Part shown: in pieces, positions 30,973-44,776 of the stretch
Position numbering within the stretch: position 1 is the stretch's first letter
How the letters are laid out: each line of letters starts with the position of its first letter
Assembly (NCBI RefSeq): GCF_040610475.1
Contig: NZ_JBEXMJ010000004.1
Span: forward strand, 248,001-312,000
DNA from: Actinopolymorpha sp. NPDC004070
Lineage (GTDB): Bacteria; Actinomycetota; Actinomycetes; Propionibacteriales; Actinopolymorphaceae
Length of the DNA stretch: 64,000 bases
Direction: 5' to 3'
Notes under the pieces: generated by a model
Told to the model about the DNA's origin: nothing
What the model saw: only the letters and a program-made list of their open reading frames with translations
Databases searched by the model: none
Translations under genes and position numbers: made by a program

Positions 30973-32349
30973 TCAGCCGCCGACCGCGACGCCGGACGGC
31001 CAGGACCCGCTGCCGCCCTCGTCCCCTACGACTCCCCCGGTACCCGCAGGCGCCGGCGAGCCCGCCCACACCGGGCCGTCCGGGTAGCGGTAGTCGGCGA
31101 GCGTCTCCGGGAGCAGCTCCGCCGACATCCCGGGCGCGGTCGGCGCGGCGTAGGCGCCCGCCACGATCCGCACCGGGTCGACGAAGTGCTCGTGCAGGTG
31201 GTCGACGTACTCCACCACCCGGTCCGGCCGGTGCCCCGCGACGGCCACCTCGTCGAACATCGCCAGGTGCTGCACGAGCTCGCACAGGCCGACGCCCCCG
31301 GCGTGCGGGCACACGGGTACGCCGAACTTCGCGGCCAGCAGCAGGATCGCGACGTTCTCGTTCACCCCGCCGACCCGGGCCGCGTCCGGCTGCAGGACGT
31401 CGATCGCGCCCGCCTGCAACAGCTGCTTGACGATGACGCGGTTCTGGGCGTGCTCACCGGTCGCCACCCGGATCGGCGCTATCCCGCGCCGGATGGCGGC
31501 GTGGCCGAGCACGTCGTCGGGTGAGGTCGGCTCCTCCACCCACCACAGGTCGAAATCGCGCAACCGGTCGACCCAGCGCACGGACTCCGCGACGTCCCAG
31601 CACTGGTTGGCGTCCACGGCGATCCGTACGTCCGGACCGACCGCCCGGCGGGCCACGCCGAGCCGGCGCCGGTCGTCCTCGACGTCGCGCCCCACCTTCA
31701 GCTTGATCTGCCCGAACCCGTCCGCGACGGCCTGCCGGGACAGCCGGTCGACGGTCTCGTCGTCGTAGCCGAGCCACCCCGGCGTGGTGGTGTACGCCGC
31801 GAGTCCGTGCGTACGCAGGCGTTCCTCGCGGGCGGCACGGCCGGGTTCGGCCTCCTTGAGCAGGTCGAGCGCCTCCTCCGGGGTGAGCGCGTCGCGAAGG
31901 TAGCGCCAGTCGACCAGGCCGACGATCTGCTCCGGCGTCAGGTCCGCCAGCAGCTTCCACACCGGCAGCCCCGCCCGGCGGCCGGCGAGGTCCCAGACGG
32001 CGTTGACGACCGCACCGATCGCCATGTGCATCAGGCCCTTCTCGGGGCCGAGCCAGCGAAACTGCGAGTCGTCCACGAGGTCGAAGTAGACCCGGCCGAG
32101 GTCGGCGCAGATCTCCTCCACGTCCCTCCCGACCAGGGCGGGGGCGAGCGCCCGGATCGCCGCGCACTGCACCTCGTTGCCCCGGCCGATGGTGAACGCG
32201 AAGCCGTGGCCGTCGGGCCCGTCGCTGGTGCGCAGCACGACGTACGCCGCGGAGTAGTCGGGGTCGGGGTTCATGGCGTCGGAGCCGTGCAGCTCACGGG
32301 ACGTCGGGAACCGCACGTCGTGTACGTCGACCGCGACCAGTTTCGCCAC
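30973..32349 (-). CDS. L-fuconate dehydratase-like enolase superfamily enzyme
   Basis: 458 aa of the mandelate-racemase/enolase superfamily. Diagnostic residues: the base-containing GQIKLKVG (KxK motif), metal-ligand segments [20 protein letters not shown] and [10 protein letters not shown], and the His of [11 protein letters not shown]. Length and opening ([27 protein letters not shown]) fit L-fuconate dehydratase, which removes water from L-fuconate to give 2-keto-3-deoxy-L-fuconate. GTG at 32349 with AGGAG upstream. A Gly/Ser/Ala tail of about 25 residues is extra. Divergent from the aldose dehydrogenase gene, which fits one catabolic unit. Confidence 0.88.
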
Positions 32350-32435
32350 CGGGTCTCCTCGTTCGAAGGGGCTTGGTGATCCGCGGAGCCGGGTTCGCGG
32401 CTACCGGAGACGGCCGTCCGCGTGACCACCCAATA

Positions 32436-32444
32436 CGTCAGACG
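32436..32444. promoter_or_regulatory. GntR/FadR-type operator candidate
   Basis: CGTCAGACG is an odd-centred perfect inverted repeat resembling GTCnGAC-type sites of FCD-domain GntR regulators, which often control sugar-acid operons. It lies in the divergent promoter region of the fuconate dehydratase and aldose dehydrogenase genes. The regulator itself is not in this window. Confidence 0.4.
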
Positions 32445-32570
32445 ACCACTAGGATCCGGAATCAGCTTGCCACGTGGCCGGGCGGGGCCGGTCGACCGAT
32501 CGCGGCGAGCGGCCGTCGGACCGTACGCCACGCCCCTGCCGTGTGCGAAGCAACGCGAAACGAGGCAAGC

Positions 32571-33563
32571 ATGGGCAAGCGGGCCACGCAGCGGCACCGG
32601 CTCGGCACGAGCGACGTCGAGGTCACCACGCTGGGGCTGGGAACCGCCCCGCTGGGCGGGCTGTTCACCTCCGTCGCGGACGAAACCGCGGCCGCGGTGG
32701 TGAAGGCCGCGCTGGACGCCGGCCTCAACTACCTCGACACCGCTCCGCTGTACGGCCACGGGACCGCCGAGCGCCGGGTGGGCGCCGCGCTGTCCGGGAT
32801 CGGCCGTTCCGAGTACGTCCTGTCCACGAAGGTCGGCCGCCTGATCGTGCCTGTCGAGGGCGCGGACGGCGCCGGGGGGCCGAACGCGAACGGGTACGCC
32901 GACGCTCCGCCGTCGGAGGCGACGTTCGACTACACCCGGGACGGCATCCAGCGCTCGGTGACCGAGAGCCTGGAGCGCCTCGGCCTGGACCGGGTGGACA
33001 TCCTCTACATCCACGACCCGGACGACCACGAGGAGGAGGCCCTCACGGTCGCCTACCCCGCGGTCCGCGAGCTGCGCGACCAGGGCATCGTGCGGGCGAT
33101 CGGCGTGGGCATGAACCAGTCCCGCATCCCTACCCGGTTCGTCCGCGAGACCGACGTCGACGCGGTTCTGCTGGCCGGGCGCTACACGCTGCTGGAGCAG
33201 CCCGGGGCCGAGGACCTGCTGCCGGCCTGCCTGGAGCGGGACACCTCGATCGTGATCGGCGGCGTCTACAACTCCGGTCTGCTGGCCGACCCCCGGCCGG
33301 GTGCGACGTACAACTACGCCGAGGCGCCGGAGCACCTGATCGCCCGGGCACAGGAGCTGGCCGGGATCTGCGAGCGGCACGGCGTACCCCTCAAGGCGGC
33401 GGCGATCCAGTTCCCGCTGTGGCACCCGGCGGTGGCCACCGTCCTCACCGGCGCGCGGAGCGTGGCCGAACTGGAGGAGAACCTCCAGATGATGGAGTAC
33501 GACATCCCGGAGGCGTTGTGGGACGACCTCGCCGACGCGGGGGTGAAGCGGCATGGCGCCTGA
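32571..33563 (+). CDS. Aldo/keto reductase, L-fucose (D-threo-aldose) 1-dehydrogenase-like
   Basis: 330-aa TIM-barrel oxidoreductase. The catalytic tetrad is visible as Asp and Tyr in NYLDTAPLYG, Lys in LSTKVGRL and His in ILYIHDPDD. The insert VPVEGADGAGGPNANGY-type loop and GGVYNSGLLADP are typical of D-threo-aldose/L-fucose dehydrogenases, which oxidise the sugar to its lactone with NAD(P). ATG at 32571. Its stop overlaps the next gene by 11 bp. Confidence 0.87.
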   Translation: MGKRATQRHRLGTSDVEVTTLGLGTAPLGGLFTSVADETAAAVVKAALDAGLNYLDTAPLYGHGTAERRVGAALSGIGRSEYVLSTKVGRLIVPVEGADGAGGPNANGYADAPPSEATFDYTRDGIQRSVTESLERLGLDRVDILYIHDPDDHEEEALTVAYPAVRELRDQGIVRAIGVGMNQSRIPTRFVRETDVDAVLLAGRYTLLEQPGAEDLLPACLERDTSIVIGGVYNSGLLADPRPGATYNYAEAPEHLIARAQELAGICERHGVPLKAAAIQFPLWHPAVATVLTGARSVAELEENLQMMEYDIPEALWDDLADAGVKRHGA

Positions 33564-34470
33564 CGCCGGCGCCGGCCCGGGCGACGCGGCAGATCCCACT
33601 GCGGTTCCGGGCGCGGCGGCCGGCCCCGGCGGCGTGGACGCCCACCACCACGTGTGGGACCTGTCCGTACGACCGGAGCCGTGGATCGAGGGGCCGGAGA
33701 TGGCCCCGATCGACAAGACGTTCCACCTGTTCGACCTCGCGCCGCACGCGAAGGCGGCCGGGGTGGCCCGGACCGTGCTGGTGCAGACGGTGCCCGACGT
33801 CGACGAGACGCGGGACTTCCTCGCCCTCGCCGACGGCAGCGACCTGGTGGGTGCGGTGACCGGTTGGGTGGACCTCACCGCGGACTCGGTGGCCGACGAC
33901 CTCGCCGAGCTGGCCGCCGCGCCCGGCGGGCAGTACCTTCGCGCCATCCGGCACGGGGTGCAGGGCGAGGAGGACCCGGCCTGGCTCTGCCGGCCCGACG
34001 TGCGGCGCGGCCTGGCCGCGGTGGCCGACGCCGGGCTGCGCTACGAGCTGCTGACGATCCCGGTGCAGCTGCCGGCAGCCGTGGACACGGTGGAGGCGCT
34101 GCCGGAGGCGGCGTTCGTCCTCGACCACTGCTCGAAGCCGGAGATCGCCAAGGGCGAGACCGAGCCGTGGGCCGGGCTGGTCCGCCGGCTCGCCGCGTAC
34201 CCCAACGTCACCTGCAAGCTCTCCGGGCTGGTGACCGAGGCCGACTGGGCGTCCTGGGACGTCGCCGCCCTGCGGCCCTACGTCGACGTGGTGCTGGAGG
34301 CGTTCGGCCCGGACCGGGTGATGTTCGGCTCGGACTGGCCGGTGTGCCTGCTGGCCTCGTCGTACGCCGACTGGGTGGCGGCGGCCCGGGAGCTCACCGC
34401 ACACCTGGACCCGGCCGAACGCGCCGACGTGTTCGGCGGCACCGCCCGCCGGGTGTACGCGCTGGACTGA
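33553..34470 (+). CDS. Amidohydrolase-family L-fuconolactonase-like protein
   Basis: 305 aa. Metal motif VDAHHHVWDL (HxH type), LRAIRHGVQGEEDPAWL, FVLDHCSKPEI and the terminal Asp in RVMFGSDWPVC are the amidohydrolase_2 signature of sugar lactonases. It should open L-fucono-1,5-lactone to L-fuconate, the step between the dehydrogenase and the dehydratase encoded beside it. Overlaps the upstream gene by 11 bp, so it is co-translated. Confidence 0.87.
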   Translation: MAPDAGAGPGDAADPTAVPGAAAGPGGVDAHHHVWDLSVRPEPWIEGPEMAPIDKTFHLFDLAPHAKAAGVARTVLVQTVPDVDETRDFLALADGSDLVGAVTGWVDLTADSVADDLAELAAAPGGQYLRAIRHGVQGEEDPAWLCRPDVRRGLAAVADAGLRYELLTIPVQLPAAVDTVEALPEAAFVLDHCSKPEIAKGETEPWAGLVRRLAAYPNVTCKLSGLVTEADWASWDVAALRPYVDVVLEAFGPDRVMFGSDWPVCLLASSYADWVAAARELTAHLDPAERADVFGGTARRVYALD

Positions 34471-34549
34471 CCCCGAACCGAACCCATCCCCGACCGACCG
34501 CCGTACTCCCGGGCGCGACCCGTCCCCGCCCTGGTGTAGAACCTCCGAC

Positions 34550-36016
34550 ATGACCTACCGCATCGCCATCGCCGGCATGTCCACCGAGTCGAGCACGTTC
34601 ACCACCCACCGCACCGCCCTGGACGACTTCCGCGTCGGCCGGGGCACGGAGCTCGCCGACCGCTACCCGTTCCTGGTCGACTGGCGGCTGCCGGAGCAGC
34701 CCGAGGTGGAGTTCGTCCCGCTGCTGCAGGCGTCCGCGCTGCCGGGCGGTCAGGTGCTGCCGGAGGTGTACGACACCATCGAGGCGGAGATCCTGGACCG
34801 GCTGCGGGCCGCGCTGGACGAGGGCGAGCTGCACGGCTTCTACTTCGACATCCACGGCGCGATGGCAGTCGAGGGGCGCCGTGACGCGGAGGCCGCGCTG
34901 GCGCACCGGATTCGGTCGCTGGTCGGTTCGGACTGCGTGATCTCGGCGTCGATGGACCTGCACGGGCAGGTGTCGGAGGACCTCGCCGAGACCGTCGACC
35001 TGCTCACCGCCTACCGCACGGCTCCGCACCTGGACTACGTGGAGACGCGCGAGCGGGCGGTACGCAACCTCGTCCGGTGCCTGGTCGAGGGAATCCGCCC
35101 GGTGCGGGCGTGGGTGCGGGTCCCTGTGCTGCTGCCGGGAGAGAAGACCAGCACCCGGGTGGAGCCGGCGAAGTCGGTCTACGCCTCGGTGGAAGAGGCC
35201 GAACGCCTGGACGGCGTCATGGACGCCTCGTTGTGGGTGGGCTACGCCTGGGCGGACGAGCCGCGTTCGGCGGCGACGGTCGTCGTGTACGGCACCGACC
35301 ACGACGTGGTGAGCACCCAGGCCGAGCGGATCGCCCGGGCCTGGTGGGACGCGCGGCACGACTTCGAGTTCTGCGCACCGGCCGGACCGGCCGAGTGGTG
35401 CGTGGCGCAGGCGTTCGAGTCCGGTCAGCGGCCCTTCTTCGTCAGCGACTCCGGCGACAACCCCACCGCGGGCGGGTCCAACGACGTCGCCTGGCTGCTC
35501 GGCCACCTGCTGGCGACCCCGGCGCTCGCCTCCGGCGAACGCACCGCGATCTGGGCGAGTTGCGTCGCCCCCGAGGCCGTTCGCGCCTGTGTGGACGCGG
35601 GCGTCGGCGGCCGGGTCGACGTCGAGGTCGGTGGGGTCTTCGGTGGCGGCGAGCCGGTGGCGATGAGCGGCGAGGTCACCCACGTCACTCGCGAGGACCA
35701 GGTGGGTGGCGACATCGCGGTGGTGCGTTCCGGCGGGGTGTCCGCGGTGCTCACCAGCAGGCGCAAGCCGTTCCACTACGTCGCCCACCTGCAGGCGCTC
35801 GGACTGGAGCCGGCCGACCACGACCTGACCGCGGTGAAGATCGGTTACCTCCAGCCCGACCTGTACCAGGCCGCCAAGGGCTGGGTGCTGGCGCTGACCC
35901 CCGGCGGCGTCGACCAGGACCTGCTCCGGCTGGACCACCAGCACGTCGTACGTCCGATCCACCCGCTGGACGCCGACTTCGACGACCCCGACCTGACTCC
36001 GGTGATCTTCGGGTAG
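34550..36016 (+). CDS. M81 family metallopeptidase (MlrC/microcystinase C-like)
   Basis: 488 aa. N-terminal IAIAGMSTESSTFTTHRTALDDF, then FDIHGAMAVEGRRDAE, ISASMDLHGQVSED, TAYRTAPHLDYVETRERA, and VSDSGDNPTAGGSNDV carry the His/Asp residues of the DUF1485/M81 zinc site. A C-terminal MlrC domain follows. The natural substrate is not known, although Sphingomonas MlrC cleaves linearised microcystin products. TAGAAC ends 7 nt before ATG 34550, suggesting its own leaderless transcript rather than part of the fucose set. Confidence 0.85.
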   Translation: MTYRIAIAGMSTESSTFTTHRTALDDFRVGRGTELADRYPFLVDWRLPEQPEVEFVPLLQASALPGGQVLPEVYDTIEAEILDRLRAALDEGELHGFYFDIHGAMAVEGRRDAEAALAHRIRSLVGSDCVISASMDLHGQVSEDLAETVDLLTAYRTAPHLDYVETRERAVRNLVRCLVEGIRPVRAWVRVPVLLPGEKTSTRVEPAKSVYASVEEAERLDGVMDASLWVGYAWADEPRSAATVVVYGTDHDVVSTQAERIARAWWDARHDFEFCAPAGPAEWCVAQAFESGQRPFFVSDSGDNPTAGGSNDVAWLLGHLLATPALASGERTAIWASCVAPEAVRACVDAGVGGRVDVEVGGVFGGGEPVAMSGEVTHVTREDQVGGDIAVVRSGGVSAVLTSRRKPFHYVAHLQALGLEPADHDLTAVKIGYLQPDLYQAAKGWVLALTPGGVDQDLLRLDHQHVVRPIHPLDADFDDPDLTPVIFG

Positions 36017-36096: not shown

Positions 36097-36948
36097 ATGG
36101 CCGGATTGCGACTGGACGACCTCAGCGTCGAGGACGTGTGCACGTCCTGGTCGCTGAACGTGCCCGTCGGCACCGTCCGCGCCGCCGTCGTACGCGACCA
36201 GGAGTCGGTGCGCGACCTGCTCGAGGTGGTCCTCGGGCTGGTCGCGCCGGACGACGGCCGGGTGCTCGTCGACGACGTGAACGTCCTCGAGCAACCCGAC
36301 GACCACCACCGGCGCCGCCGGCACCGGGCCGGCAACGGCGACCAGTGCCGGGTGCGGTACGTCCCGCCCTCGGGCGGACTCGAACCCGGCCTGACCCTCC
36401 AGCAGAACCTCACCCGCGCGAGCTGTCCCACCGTGCGGGTGTCCCGGCGAAGGGCGGCGGCGCAGGCCCGGGAGACCGCGAGCCGGCTCGGGCTGCGCCG
36501 CCTGCTGGGCCGCTACCCCGAGCAGCTCACCGTGGGCCAGCGCCAGCTCGGCGGGTTCGCGATGGCGTTGTGCTGGCGGCCGTGCGCGTTGGTGGTGGAG
36601 GACTCCCCCGACCTCCCCACGTGGGACGCCGCACTGGAGTTCGAACGCCTGCGGCTGGACCCGGCGGGTGTGCCGGGGCCGAGGGGGCTGTTCGGCGAGG
36701 TGGCCGGGCTGGTGCTCACCACCGACCCGGCCCGCACCAGACTGCTCGACCCCGACCCGGTCGACGTACACCCCGCGAGTGCTCCGGCAGGCGACTCGCC
36801 GGCACGGTCGGCGGAACGTCGACCGACCGAGACAGCCGAGCCGGCCGAGCCGGACGAGACGGACGAGACGGACGAGCCGGACGAGCCGGCCGAGCGGGTC
36901 GGTGGCGGCGCGTCCCGGGACCCCGACCGCGGCAGCCGCCATGCCTGA
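36097..36948 (+). CDS. Degenerate ABC-transporter ATPase homologue (motifs lost)
   Basis: 283 aa. The overall fold signature of a sugar ABC ATPase is clear: VPVGTVRAAVV at the start of the P-loop strand, LLEVVLGLVAPDDGRVLVDD after it, GLEPGLTLQQNL, and RYPEQLTVGQRQLGG. Every catalytic motif has changed: the Walker A stretch is RDQESVRD (33-40), the Q-loop glutamine is proline, LSGGQ is LTVGQ, Walker B ends VVEDSP, and the H-loop reads VLTTD. It cannot be an ordinary ATPase. An acidic Asp/Glu/Pro tail built from short repeats ends the protein. ATG 36097 has GGGGAG upstream. Stop overlaps the next start by 8 bp. Confidence 0.8.
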   Translation: MAGLRLDDLSVEDVCTSWSLNVPVGTVRAAVVRDQESVRDLLEVVLGLVAPDDGRVLVDDVNVLEQPDDHHRRRRHRAGNGDQCRVRYVPPSGGLEPGLTLQQNLTRASCPTVRVSRRRAAAQARETASRLGLRRLLGRYPEQLTVGQRQLGGFAMALCWRPCALVVEDSPDLPTWDAALEFERLRLDPAGVPGPRGLFGEVAGLVLTTDPARTRLLDPDPVDVHPASAPAGDSPARSAERRPTETAEPAEPDETDETDEPDEPAERVGGGASRDPDRGSRHA

Positions 36949-38422
36949 GCCGCCCGCGCCGACGCGGCGAGCCCTGCTGCGCGCGGCCGCCCTGACCCCG
37001 CTGGCCGGTGCCGCGACCGGCTGCGGCGCGTCCACCGTCCTCGGCGAGCGTCCCACCGTGCGGGTCGCGGTGAGCTGGAGCGCGGGTGAGCTGGCGGCGT
37101 TCCGCAGCGTGCTCGCCGGGCTGGACCACCTGCCCGGCTTCGGGCCGATGACCTACGACGTGACGCCGGTGCCGTTCGGGGACGACATCGGGACCGCGCC
37201 GGCGGCGCGCGGCGCGGGGCGGCTGGACCTCGTGATGCTGCCGCTGCCGGGTGAGCTGCGCCGCCACCTCGACACGCTGGCACCGATCCCCACCGACCTG
37301 TGGCCGGACGCCTCCGCCGGGACGTCCGGGGCTGCCGACTCCTCCCGGTCCGCCGGGCGGGCCGCTCGCTACGCGCCGGTGTGGCGTTCGCTGCTGTTCG
37401 CCGCCGACCACGCCGGCACGCTCCGGCCGTACGGCCTGCCGTTCAAGATGTCGAACAAGTCGGCGGTCTGGTACGACCGCGACCTGTTCCGCCGCCTCCG
37501 CCTGCGACCGCCGGGCACCTGGGCCCAGTGGCTGCGGCTCAACCGGACGCTGCGGTCCGCCGGCGTGCACCCCCTGGCCCTGGGCGTGGCCGACGGGTGG
37601 TCGCTCACCGACTTCTTCGAGAACGTCCTGGTGGGCACCTCGCCGGCGACGTACGAACGCCTGGCCGGCGATCCCGCGCTCCGGCCCGCCCTGTGGGGCA
37701 GCGCCCCCGTGCGCGCGTGCCTGCGCCGGCTGGCCGAGCTGTGGGGTCCGGCCGGGACGCTGACAGGCGGGGTGACCGGGTCGCTGGTCCGGCAGTTCCC
37801 CGAGTCGGTGCTGGAGGTGTTCGCCTACCGCCGGGCGGCGATGGTGGTCGTGGCCGACTACGCCGAGCCGTACGTACGCCGGTTCACCGCCGGTGACCGG
37901 GCGAGCGTCGGGGTGTTCCGCTTCCCGCACATGTCGCCCGACCTGCCCGCTCCGCTGGTCGCCGGTGGCGACGTGATGGTGCTCACCCGGCCGGCCGCCC
38001 CGGAGGCGGTGGACCTGCTCCGCCGGCTCGCGAACCCGCTCGCCCCGCGTCCGTGGATCGCGCGGACGGGCGGCTTCATCGCCGCCGACCACGACACGCC
38101 CGCCACGTCCTACTCCCCGCAGGCCGCCGCGCTCGCGAAGGAGCTGCGCACCGGCAGGTTTCACTTCGATCTGTCCGACCAGCTCGGCGCGGTGGGGTCC
38201 CGGGAAGGCATGTGGCGGGCACTGAAGGACTTCCTCGCCGACGTGGCACCCAGGAAGGACGGTGGCGCGGGCCGGACCGTGGACGAGGCGATCGCGCGGT
38301 TCGTCGCCCGGATGCGGCTGGCCGAGGAGCGGGAACGAGCGGCCGGCGCGGGCGGCACCAACGCCTCCGAGGGCGCCGAGGGCACCTCCCGCGACATCGG
38401 CGTCGGAACCGGCGGCGGCTGA
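36941..38422 (+). CDS. Extracellular solute-binding lipoprotein (family 1, sugar-type)
   Basis: 493 aa. Signal peptide with a twin-arginine-like TRRALLRAAA and lipobox ATGCG, so it is anchored outside the membrane. The body is a family-1 binding protein: PFKMSNKSAVWYDRDLFRRLRLRPPGTWAQW, AYRRAAMVVVADY, and C-terminal RTGGFIAADHD. Ligand probably a sugar or glycoside. Starts inside the degenerate ATPase gene (8-bp overlap) and ends overlapping the permease start (TGATG), so it is made together with both. Confidence 0.85.
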   Translation: MPEPPAPTRRALLRAAALTPLAGAATGCGASTVLGERPTVRVAVSWSAGELAAFRSVLAGLDHLPGFGPMTYDVTPVPFGDDIGTAPAARGAGRLDLVMLPLPGELRRHLDTLAPIPTDLWPDASAGTSGAADSSRSAGRAARYAPVWRSLLFAADHAGTLRPYGLPFKMSNKSAVWYDRDLFRRLRLRPPGTWAQWLRLNRTLRSAGVHPLALGVADGWSLTDFFENVLVGTSPATYERLAGDPALRPALWGSAPVRACLRRLAELWGPAGTLTGGVTGSLVRQFPESVLEVFAYRRAAMVVVADYAEPYVRRFTAGDRASVGVFRFPHMSPDLPAPLVAGGDVMVLTRPAAPEAVDLLRRLANPLAPRPWIARTGGFIAADHDTPATSYSPQAAALAKELRTGRFHFDLSDQLGAVGSREGMWRALKDFLADVAPRKDGGAGRTVDEAIARFVARMRLAEERERAAGAGGTNASEGAEGTSRDIGVGTGGG

Positions 38423-40212
38423 TGGTGATCCGAAGCCACCGCGGCCTGCGACTGGAGGTCACCAGCCGCCCGATGTCCGGCCCGCTCGTTCCGGGCGGCC
38501 GCGGGTTCGCCGGGTTGTACGCGGCCCTGCTCGTGGCCGCCGGCGCCCTCCTGGTCGCGCTGCTGGTGGTCCCGACGGTCCTCACCGCCGGCTCCGCGCT
38601 CGGGTCGCCGCGCTGGCTGCACCTCGGGCACCTCGCCCGGGTGTTCACCGACCAGGACTCCCGGCGGGCGTTCCTCAACACCATCGGCTGGCTGGTGGTG
38701 GCGCTGGTCCTGGTGCTGGTCGGCTTCTGGATCGCGCTGCTCAGCCGGCGGCTGGGCCGCTGGTCGGTGGTCTTCGTCAACGTGCTGATGTTGCCGTTCG
38801 GCCTGTCCGCGCTGGCCTCGGGTGCGGCGTTCCGGATCATCTTCGACCCCGCACCCGAACGCGGCACCGCCACCGCCCTGCTGACGTACCTCTTCGGCGG
38901 CAGTCCGGTCTGGCTCGGCCCGTGGTGGGTCTGGTGGGTGCTGGTGTCGGCGTTCGCCTGGACCTGGCTCGGCTTCGTGGTCTCGTTGTTCCGGGCCGGG
39001 CTGGAGGCGATCCCTCCCGAGCTCATCCGCCGGGCCCGGCTGCAGGGACCGACCGGCTGGCTGGACGGCGTGTGGCGGCTGCAGTGGCGGATGCTCCGCC
39101 CGGTCACCGCGGTGGTCGTCCTCACCCTCCTCGTCGCCGCCGCCCGGATCTTCGACCTGGTGCTGATCGTGGTGCCGGTGCCGATGCAGGACGAGGTGGA
39201 CGTGGTGTCGGTGCGCTGGTGGCGGCTCACCACGTCGGCCACCGAGCAGGGCGAACCCGCCGCGATCGCGCTGGTCCTGCTCGCGGTGGTGGCCGCTGCC
39301 GCGCTGGCCGCCCGCAAGGGGATGCGCATCCCGCACGGCGTGCCGCAGCCACCTCCGCCGTGGTGGCGGCGCCAGTTGCTGGCCGGCTGGCGACGCCGCG
39401 TTCCGTGGCTGAGCGGCACGGTCGGAATCGCGGTCGGCCTGCTGTGGGCGTTCCCGTTGTTCGTGCTCGTCGCGACTGCGGTTCGCGAACCGGGCGACGC
39501 CGGCCTGCTCGGCTGGTGGCAGCCGGCGAGCCACCTGCTCAGCCTCGCCTCGCTGGCCGAGGTGTGGAACGCCGGACTGCCCGGCGCGCTGCTCGGCACG
39601 CTCGGCGTGGCCACCGGCTCCGCGCTGCTCGTGGTCAGCATCGCGGTGGTGCCCGCGCACGCGCTGGCCGCCGGTGTCGTCCGCGGCCGAGCGCTCACCG
39701 TCGTCCTGGCCGTCCTCAGCGTCCTCGCGGTGCTGCCGGTGCAGATGTACGTCGGACCGCTGCGCCAGGCGTTCACCGCGGTCGGCCTGAGCGGGTCCCG
39801 GCTGCCGCTGGTCATGATGCACGCCGCGGCCGGACTGCCGTTCGCGATCCTGCTGCTGCGGGCGGCGCTGTCGGCGGGCAACGAGGGCCGCTACGCCGAC
39901 GCGCTCGGCGGGCTGACCGGCTACCGCACCGGTGCGACCCGCGTCTGGCGTACCACCGGACCGGCGCTGGTGGCGGTGGCGGTGGTGGAGTTCGTGCTGG
40001 TGTGGGACGACTTCATCGTGAGCTTCCTGGTCAGCGGCCCGGGCGCCAGCCCGCTCACCCTGGTGCTGTGGGGCGAGGCTCGGCAGTTCGCCACCTCGAC
40101 CGGTCCGGTCGCCGCGGCGGCGGTCGTCTCCGCCGCCGTGCCGTCGATCCTGCTGCTGCTGACCTGGCGGCGCTGGGTGGTGCCCGGCCTCACCGGCGGG
40201 GTGTTGCGATGA
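38422..40212 (+). CDS. Fused two-domain sugar ABC permease
   Basis: 596 aa, about twice the usual permease length. Two six-helix halves follow one another: helices near residues 25-55, 88-115, 120-150, 170-200, 225-250 and 275-300, then a cytoplasmic link (HGVPQPPPPWWRR) and a second set. An EAA-loop is clear in half 1 (EAIPPELIRRARLQGPTGWLDGVWRLQWRMLRP) and weaker in half 2 (ALGGLTGYRTGATRVWRTTGP). The fusion replaces the usual MalF/MalG-type pair. ATG 38422 overlaps the binding-protein stop and TGA 40212 overlaps the next ATG. Confidence 0.85.
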   Translation: MVIRSHRGLRLEVTSRPMSGPLVPGGRGFAGLYAALLVAAGALLVALLVVPTVLTAGSALGSPRWLHLGHLARVFTDQDSRRAFLNTIGWLVVALVLVLVGFWIALLSRRLGRWSVVFVNVLMLPFGLSALASGAAFRIIFDPAPERGTATALLTYLFGGSPVWLGPWWVWWVLVSAFAWTWLGFVVSLFRAGLEAIPPELIRRARLQGPTGWLDGVWRLQWRMLRPVTAVVVLTLLVAAARIFDLVLIVVPVPMQDEVDVVSVRWWRLTTSATEQGEPAAIALVLLAVVAAAALAARKGMRIPHGVPQPPPPWWRRQLLAGWRRRVPWLSGTVGIAVGLLWAFPLFVLVATAVREPGDAGLLGWWQPASHLLSLASLAEVWNAGLPGALLGTLGVATGSALLVVSIAVVPAHALAAGVVRGRALTVVLAVLSVLAVLPVQMYVGPLRQAFTAVGLSGSRLPLVMMHAAAGLPFAILLLRAALSAGNEGRYADALGGLTGYRTGATRVWRTTGPALVAVAVVEFVLVWDDFIVSFLVSGPGASPLTLVLWGEARQFATSTGPVAAAAVVSAAVPSILLLLTWRRWVVPGLTGGVLR

Positions 40213-43115
40213 GTACGCCACCGGTGGACGACAGCCGGCCTCCGAGCGCTTCTCCGGCGGTCGTCCCCGGCAACGTCCCCGGTTCCGGCGCCGGGGACGG
40301 CGGGCCGGGCCAGCGCCCGGGCAGTGCACCGTCGGGTCCCGGCTACCGACCGGGCCCGGCGCGCCAGCCCGAGCGCGTCTCCCCCGCCGACGTCACCGAC
40401 CTCGGCGGCCCGGAGCCGTGGGTACTGCGCCGACCGCGCTCGGGTCCGCTCCACCTCCTCCTGCGCAGCACCAGCGCGATCGCCCTGGCACTGCTCAGCG
40501 GCGTGGCGGTCAACGTCCTCACCGACGTGTGGAACACCAGCCCACTCGGCGCCGACCTCAACGGCGCGGTGCGGGTGGGGCTGGTGGTCGTGCTCGTCGG
40601 CGTGGTGCTGGGCACCGTGGTCCTGCGGGTGCTGGAGCGGCGGCGCGTCCAGGCCGCCGGCCGGGGAAGGGAACTGGCGCTGGTCGCCCCGGGTACGCCG
40701 ATCCGGCCGGTCTGGCACCGGCCCAGGCCGGTGCTGGACGACCGGGACGCCGCCGTCGCGCGCGGTGCCCACCTGCTGCGTGAACACGGGGTCGCCGCCA
40801 TCCTCGGCGAACCCGGAACCGGCACCTCGGCGGTGGCCGCCGGCGTCGTCCACACGCTCCTCGAGCTGGGCACGATCCGGGCCGGCCAGGTCGCACCGTT
40901 CGACCTGCGGGGATGGGCGTGGGAGCCGGACAGTCCGCTGACCCTGGCGAGCCACCTGCTGCCGGCGTTCGGGCTGACCGCGCCGACGTCGGACGCCGAC
41001 CTGCCCGAGGCCGCCCGCCGGCTGCACGGCGTACTCGCCGACCGCCGGGTGCTGCTGGTGCTGGACAACCTCACCGCGACCGGCCAGCTGGAGTGGCTGG
41101 CGCCGGTACTGTCCGCCCGGCCGGGCGAACCCCGGCTGCTCGTGGTCGGGCGGCCTGGTCTGGCCGGGCTGTTCGAGCCGATCGAGCCCGGTCGGCCGGA
41201 CCAACCCGACGACCAACCCGGCGAGCTCGGCCAGCCCGACCAGCTCGCCGAGCGCACCGACCCCGACCGCGACGGTTCGGTCGGGCGGCCGTACGAGGTG
41301 GTGACGCTGCCGCCGGTCGGAACCGAGACCCTCCGCGCGGTCTGGGTGAACGCGGGCGGCCCGAGCGATCCGCCCGGGGACTGGCTGGACGGCGTACTCC
41401 CCCACTGCGGCGGCCTGCCCAAGGCGGCGCACGACCTCGCCCGCGAATACGTCCGCCCGGGCGGGCCGTGGACGCCGGACGAACTGCTCCGTGCGTTCGA
41501 CGGCACGGTGGGCCGGCCCGGGATGGAGCTCGTCTGGACCGTGATCCTCAAACGCACCGGGGGCAGCCTGTCCCGGCGGGCCAGGCTGCTGCTGGGCGCG
41601 CTGGCCGAGCTCTCGGTCACCGAGCTCACCGTGGAGGCCATCGAGGCGGTACGCGGCAGCCTGGACGACCTGATCGAGATCCTCGAACGCGGCGAGGACC
41701 CGCTGCCCGGCGGGCAGGTCGAGCCGAGCCCCGATCCGGTCGCCGAGCTGCGGGACCGCCGGCTCGTCCGGGAGACCGAGGCTGGGAGGTACCGCCTGCC
41801 GGACGAGATCCGGGCGGTGATCCGCGCGCCGGGGAGTACGCCCGAGGGCGCGGCGGGTGCGGCGGTGGCCCGGCAGGCACTCGTACGCCACTACGCCACC
41901 CTGGCCCGCACCTGGATGCGGGCACTCGACTCCACCGCCGGCGCCGCGGCGGCGGCGCGCTGGTTCCAGACGACCGAGCCGCTGCTGAACGCCCTGCTGG
42001 CCGGCGGCCCCCACGACGAGGGTGCCGAGCCCGTCGCGGGCCCCTCGTCGGGATCCGGCCCGGCATTTGGGCGTGGGCTCGGTGCCGGGTTGGGTGCCGG
42101 GTTGGGTGCCGGGCTGGTCGACGACCTGTGCACCCTCGCCGACGCGCTGGACCGCTGGCGCGCCCGGACCGGACGGCCCGGCGACCCGGCTGGACAGCCA
42201 CCCGAGTTCGTCCGCGTACTGCGACAGGCCCGCCGGCCCGACCTCGCCCAGCTCGCGCGGATCCGGCACGCCGCCACCGTCCGCCAGGCGGGACGGCTGG
42301 CCGAGGCCGAGGCGGAGCTCGCGCGGGCCGCGGACACCCGGCTGCCGGTCCGCCACCGCAGGTACGCCTCCGCTCTGCAGGCCCGCCGCCACCACGAGGC
42401 CGCCCTGCACCAGCTGGCCCTGGCTGCCGCTGCGGAGGATCCGACTGCCGCGGGCGTACGCCTGCGCGACGCGGAACAGGAGCTCTACCTGTGCTGGGCC
42501 GCCCTGCCGGTCCGCGACGTGTCCGGCGAGGTGACGACGCTGCTGACGATGGCGGAGGTGCATCTGCGACAGGGGCTGCCCGGCCGCGCGCTGGACCGGC
42601 TGGACCTGGCCGAGGCCCGGGCGGCCGACAGCGCCGACCCGAGCGGCCTGGCGTACACGCACGAACTCCGCGGTGTCGCCGCCTGGATGCAGGGCCGCTC
42701 ACCGGCGGCGGTCGTGCGCTGGCAGCGTGCGCTCACCGGGTTCCGTCAGATCGCCGACACCGCCGGCCAGGCCAGGTGTCTGCAGCATCTGGGCTCGGCG
42801 GTGCTCGTGGCCCCCGAGCTGACCGGGCTGTTGCTGGAGGAACGCCGCCGTCCGCACGACGAGGTGGCCGCGGCCCGGCAGGCGCAGGCCTGGCTGGAAC
42901 GCAGCCGGCGCCTGCGCAGCGGGCCGCCGACCGCGGTGGCCGAGCAGTACCTCACGCTGGCCCGCCGGCACGCCCGCCGGGCCGGCGCCGCACCGCCGAC
43001 CGGGCCGGAGGAACTCCCCGCCGACGCGCAGCCGGCCCGGCCGGACTCCGGGCCGGCCACCCGGATCGGCCGGTTCCTCGCCGGCTTCGGCCGCCGTCCC
43101 ACGTCCTCGGCCTGA
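40209..43115 (+). CDS. Membrane-anchored STAND/NB-ARC-like protein with TPR-like repeats and altered P-loop
   Basis: 968 aa. N-terminal Pro/Gly-rich 75 residues, two membrane helices (about 82-104 and 121-141), then an NB-ARC-like module: GEPGTGTSA (200-208) where the P-loop Lys is Thr, Walker B VLLVLDNL (281-288), RLLVVGRPG, and GGLPKAAHDLA (GLPL-type motif, 401-411). A winged-helix-like region follows, then alpha-helical repeats typical of TPRs (about 690-910). A Gly-Ala-Gly-Leu run encoded by a 12-nt repeat lies near residue 625. ATG overlaps the permease stop (ATGA). STAND proteins are signal-gated switches; here the partner appears to be the transporter. Confidence 0.8.
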   Translation: MSTPPVDDSRPPSASPAVVPGNVPGSGAGDGGPGQRPGSAPSGPGYRPGPARQPERVSPADVTDLGGPEPWVLRRPRSGPLHLLLRSTSAIALALLSGVAVNVLTDVWNTSPLGADLNGAVRVGLVVVLVGVVLGTVVLRVLERRRVQAAGRGRELALVAPGTPIRPVWHRPRPVLDDRDAAVARGAHLLREHGVAAILGEPGTGTSAVAAGVVHTLLELGTIRAGQVAPFDLRGWAWEPDSPLTLASHLLPAFGLTAPTSDADLPEAARRLHGVLADRRVLLVLDNLTATGQLEWLAPVLSARPGEPRLLVVGRPGLAGLFEPIEPGRPDQPDDQPGELGQPDQLAERTDPDRDGSVGRPYEVVTLPPVGTETLRAVWVNAGGPSDPPGDWLDGVLPHCGGLPKAAHDLAREYVRPGGPWTPDELLRAFDGTVGRPGMELVWTVILKRTGGSLSRRARLLLGALAELSVTELTVEAIEAVRGSLDDLIEILERGEDPLPGGQVEPSPDPVAELRDRRLVRETEAGRYRLPDEIRAVIRAPGSTPEGAAGAAVARQALVRHYATLARTWMRALDSTAGAAAAARWFQTTEPLLNALLAGGPHDEGAEPVAGPSSGSGPAFGRGLGAGLGAGLGAGLVDDLCTLADALDRWRARTGRPGDPAGQPPEFVRVLRQARRPDLAQLARIRHAATVRQAGRLAEAEAELARAADTRLPVRHRRYASALQARRHHEAALHQLALAAAAEDPTAAGVRLRDAEQELYLCWAALPVRDVSGEVTTLLTMAEVHLRQGLPGRALDRLDLAEARAADSADPSGLAYTHELRGVAAWMQGRSPAAVVRWQRALTGFRQIADTAGQARCLQHLGSAVLVAPELTGLLLEERRRPHDEVAAARQAQAWLERSRRLRSGPPTAVAEQYLTLARRHARRAGAAPPTGPEELPADAQPARPDSGPATRIGRFLAGFGRRPTSSA
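42081..42116 (+). repeat. Three in-frame copies of a 12-nt unit
   Basis: GGTGCCGGGTTG at 42081-42092 and 42093-42104, then GGTGCCGGGCTG at 42105-42116, encode Gly-Ala-Gly-Leu three times in a linker of the STAND protein. Slippage could change the linker length in steps of four residues without shifting the frame. Confidence 0.85.
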
Positions 43116-43216: not shown

Positions 43217-44776
43217 GTGACGCTCTCCCCGGAAACCCCGGACACCCCGCCCGCCGTGCCCGACCCCGCGAACACCCGGCGGGACGACTTCCTCACCCAG
43301 GTCCTCTCGGGCCGGCTGGAGCCCGGTACGCCGGACTGGGTCTACCTGCCCGTCGACGTACCGCCCGGCGTGACCGAGCTCGCCGTCCGCTACGACTACG
43401 ACCGTCCCGCCGCACCGCCCGGGGTGCCCGGCAACGCACTCGACATCGGCATCTTCGACCCGCGCGGGCACCGCGTCGAGGACCGGGCCGGGTTCCGCGG
43501 CTGGTCCGGCGGCGCGCGCGACGAGTTCGTCCTCTCCGCCTCCGGCGCGACCCCGGGCTACCTGCCCGGACCGATCCAGCCCGGCACGTGGCACATCGCG
43601 CTCGGCCCTTACACCGTCGCGCCGCAGGGTCTCGCCTACCGGGTCGAGGTCACCGCTCGTACCGGCGACCCCGGGCCGCCGTTCGTCCCGAGCCCCGCCC
43701 CGCTCCGGGCCGCGGGCCGCGGGCCGGCGTGGTACCGCGGCGACCTGCACACGCACACCGTCCACTCCGACGGCGTACGCGAACCGGCCGAACTCCTCGC
43801 CTCCGCGCGGGCCGCCGGGCTGGACTTCGTCGTCTCCACCGAGCACAACACGACCTCCGCCCACGGCATCTGGGGCCACCACGTGCCGGACGACCTGCTG
43901 GTGGTGAACGGCGAGGAGGTCACCACCCGCAACGGTCACCTGGTGGTGGCCGGCCTGCCCGCGGGCACCTGGGTCGACTGGCGGTTCCGGGCCGTGGACG
44001 GCGTGCTCCCCCGCGTGGTCGAGATGCTGCACGGGTTCGGCGGGCTGGCGATCGCGGCCCATCCCTTCTGCCCGTACGTCGGCTGTGCCTGGAAGTTCGG
44101 CTTCGCCGAGGTGGACGTGGTGGAGGTGTGGAACGGCCCGTGGACCCCCGACGACGAGGTGTCGCTGCGGCAGTGGGACGCGGCGCTGGTCGCGGACGCC
44201 GAAGGCCGCTGGCTGCCGGCCGTCGGCAGCAGCGACACCCACGCCCACGACGACGCGGTCGGGCTGGGCCAGACGGTGGTGTGGGCCGAGGACCTGACGC
44301 GGGACGCGATCCTCGCCGGCGTGCGCGCGGGCCGCAGTTACGTCGCGGAGTCGGCCGCGGTGGAGGTGACGTTCGGCGCCAGTGCCGACGGGCGGGCCGT
44401 CGGCATCGGTGAGCGGCTGCCAGTGGCGTCCGACACTCCGGTCGAGCTCGCGGTGACGGTCCGAGGTGTCCGGAACGGGTTCGTCCGGTTCGTCTCCGAC
44501 GAGGGGATTCTTGCCCAACTGCCGCTGCCGGCGCTCGCCCCGCCGGAATCGGGCGCGGGATCGGACCCGGCCGACGACCCTCGATCCGGGGTCGAGGCTC
44601 AAGCTGAGGTCGACGTGGAGCCTTGGCGGGTCACCTGGACCACCACTGCCGCGGTCTCGAAGTACGTCCGGGTGGAGGTACGCCACACCTCCCCCCAGCC
44701 GGCCGTGTTCGAGGGCATGGCGGCGTTCACCAACCCGATCTTCCTGGACGCCGACGACCCGGCAGGGCAAAGCTGA
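43217..44776 (+). CDS. CehA/McbA-type PHP-domain metallohydrolase
   Basis: 519 aa. Residues 30-150 are a beta-sandwich module (WVYLPVDVPPGVTELAVRYDYD). Residues 172-390 are a PHP metal-hydrolase domain: RGDLHTHTVHSDG, STEHNTTSAHG, AIAAHPF and GSSDTHAHDD supply the metal-binding His/Asp residues. A second beta domain ends the protein. CehA/McbA relatives hydrolyse carbamates and phosphodiesters; the substrate here is unknown. GTG 43217 is preceded by CATACT with a 7-nt gap (leaderless), so it has its own promoter despite following the STAND operon by 101 nt. No signal peptide is seen. Confidence 0.85.
   Translation: MTLSPETPDTPPAVPDPANTRRDDFLTQVLSGRLEPGTPDWVYLPVDVPPGVTELAVRYDYDRPAAPPGVPGNALDIGIFDPRGHRVEDRAGFRGWSGGARDEFVLSASGATPGYLPGPIQPGTWHIALGPYTVAPQGLAYRVEVTARTGDPGPPFVPSPAPLRAAGRGPAWYRGDLHTHTVHSDGVREPAELLASARAAGLDFVVSTEHNTTSAHGIWGHHVPDDLLVVNGEEVTTRNGHLVVAGLPAGTWVDWRFRAVDGVLPRVVEMLHGFGGLAIAAHPFCPYVGCAWKFGFAEVDVVEVWNGPWTPDDEVSLRQWDAALVADAEGRWLPAVGSSDTHAHDDAVGLGQTVVWAEDLTRDAILAGVRAGRSYVAESAAVEVTFGASADGRAVGIGERLPVASDTPVELAVTVRGVRNGFVRFVSDEGILAQLPLPALAPPESGAGSDPADDPRSGVEAQAEVDVEPWRVTWTTTAAVSKYVRVEVRHTSPQPAVFEGMAAFTNPIFLDADDPAGQS

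Follow-up and report, generated by a model that had tools for sequence, protein, structure and literature searches.

Four overlapping genes, here called A to D, were analysed in a 64,000-nucleotide stretch of the genome of Actinopolymorpha sp. NPDC004070 (the window; contig NZ_JBEXMJ010000004.1, positions 248,001 to 312,000). In our estimation there is an even chance that this cassette is an importer of the CUT1 type with a partner of the STAND class (signal transduction ATPases with numerous domains) bearing tetratricopeptide repeats (TPR), which resembles MalFGK and MalT, has lost the ATP chemistry on both sides and has been kept as a transmembrane ligand-sensing relay. The genes are adjacent, with overlaps of 8 bp (A/B), 1 bp (B/C) and 4 bp (C/D); the limits and overlaps on which an earlier note on this DNA had based its view of a single unit were confirmed. 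That note had suggested that a pair of degenerate nucleoside triphosphatases (NTPases) is a regulatory device around a transporter energised by a shared ATPase, or that the set is a transport-derived sensor. The motif losses of this pair were found again, but the pair is not constant, as A and/or the NTPase domain of D are absent in the Nocardia and Kribbella loci examined. Judging from the related loci, the constant core is the binding protein, the fused permease and the membrane-anchored TPR protein, and not the NTPase pair.

The product of gene A, a pseudo-nucleotide-binding domain (pseudo-NBD), matches ABC_tran, the ATP-binding cassette (ABC) family of Pfam, with 26 bits, just above the cut-off of 25, and its profile retrieves MalK- and ModC-type ATPases among the solved structures. 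A Foldseek search with the AlphaFold2 model (predicted local distance difference test, pLDDT, 80.7) yielded ABC NBDs, several of them of the MalK type (E 2.5e-12). According to the predicted structure, A has the fold of a MalK-type ABC NBD. The pattern GxxGxGK[ST] is absent from A, and in the alignment the glutamine of the Q-loop, the LSGGQ signature, the order of the DE pair in Walker B and the histidine of the H-loop are all altered. Among the 120 homologues of A that were listed (179 weaker matches lie beyond them, and a relative with an intact A is possible among these), GK[ST] and a Walker B motif with a hydrophobic-DE sequence were each found in 0/120 and an LSG-like signature in 2/120. 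An order-swapped ED pair at the Walker B position occurred in 120/120 and the motif PTW in 117/120. The losses reported in the earlier note are therefore real, but they are not total, as this swapped pair has been kept.

Conservation was compared over eight segments of A in an alignment of 45 rows, dominated by sequences of the Kribbella type. The entropy was lowest at the segment which, by analogy with MalK, presumably contacts the permease, reached 0.59 bits at the signature and was highest at the P-loop position (Table 1). Since it is low at the contact and signature segments and high at the P-loop position, the part conserved in A is the surface side of the NBD and not the nucleotide pocket. 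The ratio of non-synonymous to synonymous substitutions (dN/dS), determined for 11 pairs, was 0.02–0.33 for A (in the five Actinopolymorpha pairs for residues 1–226 only, excluding the variable tail) and 0.04–0.14 for C; no gene of the cassette exceeded 0.42. On this evidence, the motif loss in A is a conserved state under purifying selection.

Up to E = 1, Pfam gave no match for A other than ABC_tran, and no C-terminal OB/TOBE domain was found at this threshold. The length of A ranges from 182 to 303 amino acids in 20 relatives. Residues ~227–283 of the window protein form a variable tail, which includes a stretch rich in acidic repeats (window positions 36775–36945); this tail varies in length and content even between species that are 95–96% identical in C.

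The product of gene B matches SBP_bac_1, and its residues R9, R10 and C28 are invariant in 21 aligned sequences. If the arginine pair and the cysteine are read as a twin-arginine translocation (Tat) signal and a lipobox, as we assume here, B is probably a Tat lipoprotein. The first half of C aligns to SugA/MalF and the second half to SugB, and the transmembrane bodies of CUT1 permeases are present. The earlier note had described normal family features for both the binding protein and the permease, but the coupling loops of C have diverged.

In importer permeases, the contact with the ATPase is described to run through the EAA-x3-G loop (PMC3150292). The canonical coupling pattern was found in 0/31 C sequences (the window, 20 relatives, the metagenome-assembled genome at locus L061 and nine Nocardia) and in 0/120 listed permeases from a protein search with a Nocardia C, two sets that share a few Nocardia genomes. 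In contrast, a six-frame scan detected it in 7/7 permease loci that served as controls from the own genome; these are the seven with loci among 15 other permease matches, and either the matched permease or its partner may be the source of the pattern. A simpler pattern, EA[AS]...G, occurred in 0/31 C sequences and 2/120 listed permeases, and a relaxed one, [EDQ][AS]A...G, in 8/31 C sequences, with six printed matches falling outside the aligned coupling loops. In the N-half loop, arginine occupies the glutamate position in 21/21 aligned C sequences, and G209 is kept in at least 90% of these 21; from the C-half loop the motif has disappeared. The N-half loops of Nocardia are changed further, and one of them (L081) carries a long insertion there.

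The AlphaFold2 model of D (pLDDT 71.4, predicted template modelling score 0.64) begins with an N-terminus of low confidence, followed by two long helices, an NTPase of the alpha/beta type, parts that are helical and winged-helix-like and, finally, a long TPR superhelix. The two helices cover a hydrophobic stretch and were modelled with low to moderate confidence. Foldseek found 6mfv, a STAND protein with a TPR sensor, as the best match of D, followed by CED-4 and Apaf-1; the AfsR model scored D with 27 bits, far below its cut-off. From this model, the D protein of the window has the fold of a nucleotide-binding oligomerization domain with a TPR sensor. Its P-loop is altered, as the earlier note had claimed. 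Variants of it (GEPGTGTSA, GPPGTGSSA or GPPGSGSSA) were present in 6/6 D proteins including that of the window, with threonine or serine in the place of the Walker-A lysine, and a broken copy in genome G006 reads GAPRMGTS, again with threonine at this place.

The domain content of D differs between the lineages. D proteins of Actinopolymorphaceae consist of anchor, NTPase, winged helix and TPR, and those of Kribbella (14/14, 423–441 amino acids) and of L061 of anchor and TPR only. The nine Nocardia proteins (547–672 amino acids) showed neither a match to the NTPase part nor a P-loop-like pattern; their alignment begins at residue 402–482 of an Actinopolymorphaceae D, ahead of or within the winged-helix-like region. 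The NTPase module is, as far as these alignments tell, optional in the family. Within Actinopolymorpha, dN/dS was lower for the anchor and TPR (0.15–0.29) than for the NTPase (0.28–0.36) in each of three pairs. One Nocardia D (genome G366, L099:9386-11404) carries a long, Arg/Trp-rich repeated insertion in the TPR region, unlike the other 18 aligned D proteins.

Table 1. Genes and segments of the cassette and its upstream neighbour, in window positions
Feature	Position	Strand	Description
Gene A	36097..36948	+	283 aa; pseudo-NBD, MalK-type ABC ATPase fold (predicted) without nucleotide motifs
A residues 30-39	36184..36213	+	P-loop position; reads AVVRDQESVR; little conserved, mean entropy 1.54 bits
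A residues 86-105	36352..36411	+	Q-loop/permease-contact segment (presumed); most conserved of the segments compared, 0.41 bits; Gln lost
Gene B	36941..38422	+	493 aa; CUT1-like solute-binding protein, probable Tat lipoprotein
Gene C	38422..40212	+	596 aa; fused permease, SugA/MalF-like half followed by SugB-like half
C residues 197-213	39010..39060	+	N-half coupling loop; EAA..DG changed to RRA..QG, Arg at Glu position
C residues 485-505	39874..39936	+	C-half coupling loop; sequence ADALGG, EAA...G no longer present
Gene D	40209..43115	+	968 aa; membrane-anchored degenerate STAND/TPR protein
D residues 80-157	40446..40679	+	two long helices taken as membrane hairpin; alignable in compared D
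D residues 180-321	40746..41171	+	STAND NTPase domain; absent from examined Kribbella, L061 and Nocardia D
D P-loop	40806..40832	+	GEPGTGTSA; Walker-A Lys changed to Thr
D residues ~439-540	41523..41828	+	winged-helix-like; has a match in Nocardia D but is missing from Kribbella D
D residues ~545-924	41841..42980	+	TPR superhelix with conserved RCLQH segment; kept in compared D
M81/MlrC-like metallopeptidase	34550..36016	+	upstream neighbour in Actinopolymorphaceae loci only; outside the core

A search of related genomes, in which 13 candidates at most were scored per genome, gave a match to C (E <= 1e-40) in 32 of 97 genomes including the own one (G000, which shares its genus with G002, G003 and G005). 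These were 7/8 Actinopolymorphaceae, 25/31 genomes of the Kribbella family and 0/58 others of the order. In a class-wide draw, 3/246 genomes matched at 1e-30, namely the own genome, one Nocardia and G305. The latter was discarded as a distant cousin, since the matching operon has two separate permeases and no match to A or D and looks like an ordinary sugar operon. With the Nocardia C as query, 8/201 genomes of the Nocardia family and 2/296 of a phylum draw (own genome included) matched, and the protein search with this query also gave three weaker clusters without a name (P0238–P0240). As far as the draws and the contig scan show, the family seems to be narrow and to comprise Actinopolymorphaceae, Kribbella, part of Nocardia and one metagenome-assembled genome (L061).

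From 20 of the 31 other matching genomes (Actinopolymorphaceae and Kribbella) the locus was fetched, and the order A-B-C-D was found in 20/20. Because the order is identical in all of them, the gene set is more than chance. The overlaps were 4–14 bp between A and B and 1–11 bp between B and C (20/20 each), and C and D overlapped by 4 bp in 17/20 loci (including L043), with gaps of 13–31 bp in L038, L039 and L040; the gene starts are predictions chosen by proximity to the preceding stop, on which these overlaps and gaps depend. The frames were unbroken in 19/20 loci. In the D gene of G006 (L043:10415-13352), a frame change interrupts the already degenerate NTPase domain, which could reflect either a genuine loss or an error in sequencing, and the A gene of L061 is split between frames. 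The check in relatives which the earlier note had proposed was thus positive with respect to gene order as well as to motif losses, which are conserved under purifying selection.

In Nocardia, nine loci were examined, L081 and those of the eight genomes from the Nocardia-family search. Their cassettes consist of B, C and D, with a 4-bp overlap of C and D in 9/9 (chosen starts), and no A was found at these loci by tblastn (1e-3) or with the A profile. The Nocardia cassette persists without A and without the NTPase of D, so that it needs neither of them to be kept. One match of the A profile, in L105 (genome G454), was rejected; it fits an ordinary ABC ATPase gene (L105:5921-6712) on the opposite strand, which is convergent to the cassette and lies less than 300 bp from its end. 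In a tree built without L101 and L105, the seven Nocardia rows formed one clade, whose join to the rest was flagged for long-branch risk; because of this long branch any order of the losses read from the tree is tentative.

The nucleotide-handling parts are exactly those absent in different lineages, and B, C and the anchor with the TPR remain. A more far-reaching form of the relay can be put forward tentatively, and we rate it at somewhat less than even. The cassette would be an ATP-independent transmembrane receptor derived from an ABC importer, in which the liganded binding protein switches a transport-dead C, the pseudo-NBD reads this state and the tethered, STAND-derived TPR protein relays it; a pair like MalFGK and MalT would have shed its nucleotide chemistry stepwise, with A, the NTPase or the winged helix missing by lineage. 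In the relay to which we give an even chance, the lipoprotein B would bind an extracellular solute, probably a carbohydrate, dock on the fused permease and alter its shape. The altered cytoplasmic loops might then be read by A as a passive adaptor, or by another partner where A is absent. The membrane-tethered D would receive the change and expose or hide its TPR surface to a downstream protein.

The steps of this relay have counterparts in described systems. The idle MalFGK2 of Escherichia coli is reported to hold the STAND activator MalT through MalK and to free it when transport starts (PMC10427625). Like MalEFGK2 and MalT, the cassette combines a CUT1 binding protein, a permease of the MalF/MalG type, a subunit with the MalK fold and, as its STAND component, a protein whose sensor is superhelical. 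Unlike in E. coli, the MalK-fold subunit lacks the nucleotide motifs and OB/TOBE, the permease is fused, and D is membrane-anchored, has an altered P-loop, shows no Pfam DNA-binding domain and is encoded in the same operon. STAND-TPR proteins are reported to have autoinhibitory contacts, which may help inhibitory partners to bind (PMC6468293). D shares its fold with PH0952 and AfsR-type proteins of this kind (6mfv being its best match) and differs from them in the membrane hairpin, the lost Walker-A lysine and the absence of the NTPase in most examined relatives. In Actinobacteria, a transporter-type binding lipoprotein has been proposed to signal via a membrane protein to the TPR-bearing kinase PknG (PMC6069109); the likeness to GlnH-GlnX-PknG lies in this path across the membrane to a TPR protein, but that system has no ABC permease or NBD-fold subunit and has a kinase output. 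For the set A-B-C-D itself, of which the earlier note knew no described example, no description was returned by searches of the open-access literature.

Several observations weigh against the relay. No effector domain or regulated gene was identified for the cassette, and the absence of A in Nocardia means that A cannot be essential to such a relay in general. In 10/11 pairs, dN/dS was lower for C than for A, B and D, as it would be in an active transporter, too. The N-half loop of Kribbella retains IP, the glycine (14 rows) and, in most rows, LP. The own genome also contains an orphan MalK-type ATPase, with surroundings as expected of MsiK from its gene neighbours. Furthermore, the first EAA residue varies (E/N/R/K) in mycobacterial sugar importers and is K or R in SugA/B of Mycobacterium tuberculosis (PMC8603345), so that the arginine at the glutamate position is no proof by itself. 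The stronger sign of coupling-loop divergence is that the AA behind it and the D have been lost.

The main alternative is a working sugar importer which is powered in trans by a shared MsiK-type ATPase and throttled by A and D as regulatory or assembly subunits; we regard it as possible, but on the doubtful side. OB_MalK (PF17912) matched five places in the own genome (G000), four of them above the cut-off. One is a 394-amino-acid MalK-type protein with ABC, OB and TOBE domains (L116:8604-9788). Its seven neighbours scanned with Pfam included a LacI-type regulator, a DUF4032 protein, genes of an integrative element, an acyl-CoA dehydrogenase and a tRNA synthetase, and no ABC permease or extracellular binding protein was among these seven. 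Of the other four OB_MalK places, one lies together with two permeases and a binding protein and two lie beside two permease-like genes. As an observation on this locus, the DUF4032 gene follows the orphan ATPase (L116:8604-11216), and the LacI-type regulator and an integrase/RepSA element precede it.

With this orphan ATPase present, an importer using a shared ATPase is possible in this organism. The strong constraint on B and C would also be expected of an MsiK-powered importer, and the nine Nocardia cassettes without an NBD gene fit an ATPase supplied in trans. Such importers have precedents in the MsiK-dependent CUT1 systems DasABC and CebEFG and in UspABC, which, like the cassette, have a binding protein and permease without a working ATPase of their own. 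To our knowledge, these three have separate permeases and neither a pseudo-NBD nor a STAND/TPR gene. Importers lacking an own NBD are described for DasABC with MsiK (PMC6167110) and for UspABC of M. tuberculosis, the coupling loops of which retain the (E/N/R/K)AA motif (PMC8603345). The missing coupling pattern in all C sequences versus its presence in all control loci of the same genome, and the further changes in Nocardia with the insertion in L081, argue against this alternative. The diverged loops shift the weight from an MsiK-powered transporter with regulators, now the less likely reading, to a transport-derived sensor.

There is little to recommend a facilitator or channel, in which C lets solute pass downgradient, A plugs it structurally and D is a membrane TPR scaffold that is co-expressed but has nothing to do with it. 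The conserved permease body and the lost ATP chemistry would suit it, but D lies directly behind C in Actinopolymorphaceae, Kribbella and the Nocardia without A. We also know of no ABC permease that works in this manner, which counts against it. Slightly less probable still is a decaying relic of a transporter operon, to which the motif losses, the frame breaks in D of G006 and A of L061 and the lack of a C match at 1e-40 in 6/31 Kribbella-family genomes might point, but which was rejected in view of dN/dS values of at most 0.42, unbroken frames in 19/20 loci and many invariant residues across two families. An anti-phage defence system was dismissed, as no PADLOC model matched (0/5 proteins at E 0.01).

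The neighbouring genes differ between the lineages. An M81 gene lies 83–593 bp upstream of A in 6/6 other Actinopolymorphaceae loci. In Kribbella (L044–L057), a methyltransferase gene is found upstream of the cassette in 14/14 loci, and radA follows directly in 13/14 (the remaining locus lies close to the end of its contig); disA comes after it at a greater distance. The start of radA falls within 20 bp of the stop of D in six Kribbella loci, which suggests from the gene spacing that the cassette is co-transcribed with DNA-repair genes there. Five Nocardia surroundings viewed by eye showed neither the M81 nor the methyltransferase/radA pattern. As the upstream gene differs (M81 or methyltransferase), the neighbours were ruled out as a general clue to function. 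The region upstream of A in the window (30973–36016) encodes an enolase-superfamily dehydratase (minus strand), an aldo/keto reductase, an amidohydrolase and the M81 peptidase, which we take to resemble a catabolic cluster of the non-phosphorylating L-fucose type. Just downstream of D, a gene of 519 amino acids (43217–44776) has no Pfam match at 0.001; an open reading frame downstream of D in L042 (4619–6070, minus strand) has a similar start and only a weak match to PHP_C.

Pseudoenzymes are well known among kinases. We know of no described pseudoenzyme family for the ATPases of ABC importers. If the relay exists as proposed, an annotation as ABC ATPase or sugar permease need not mean that the products of these genes take part in transport. 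The cassette would be a natural dissection of the talk between an importer and its STAND regulator, in which the energy side was lost, and the ligand side and the STAND/TPR partner have stayed under selection. It would also represent a further type of receptor in Actinobacteria alongside GlnH-GlnX-PknG.

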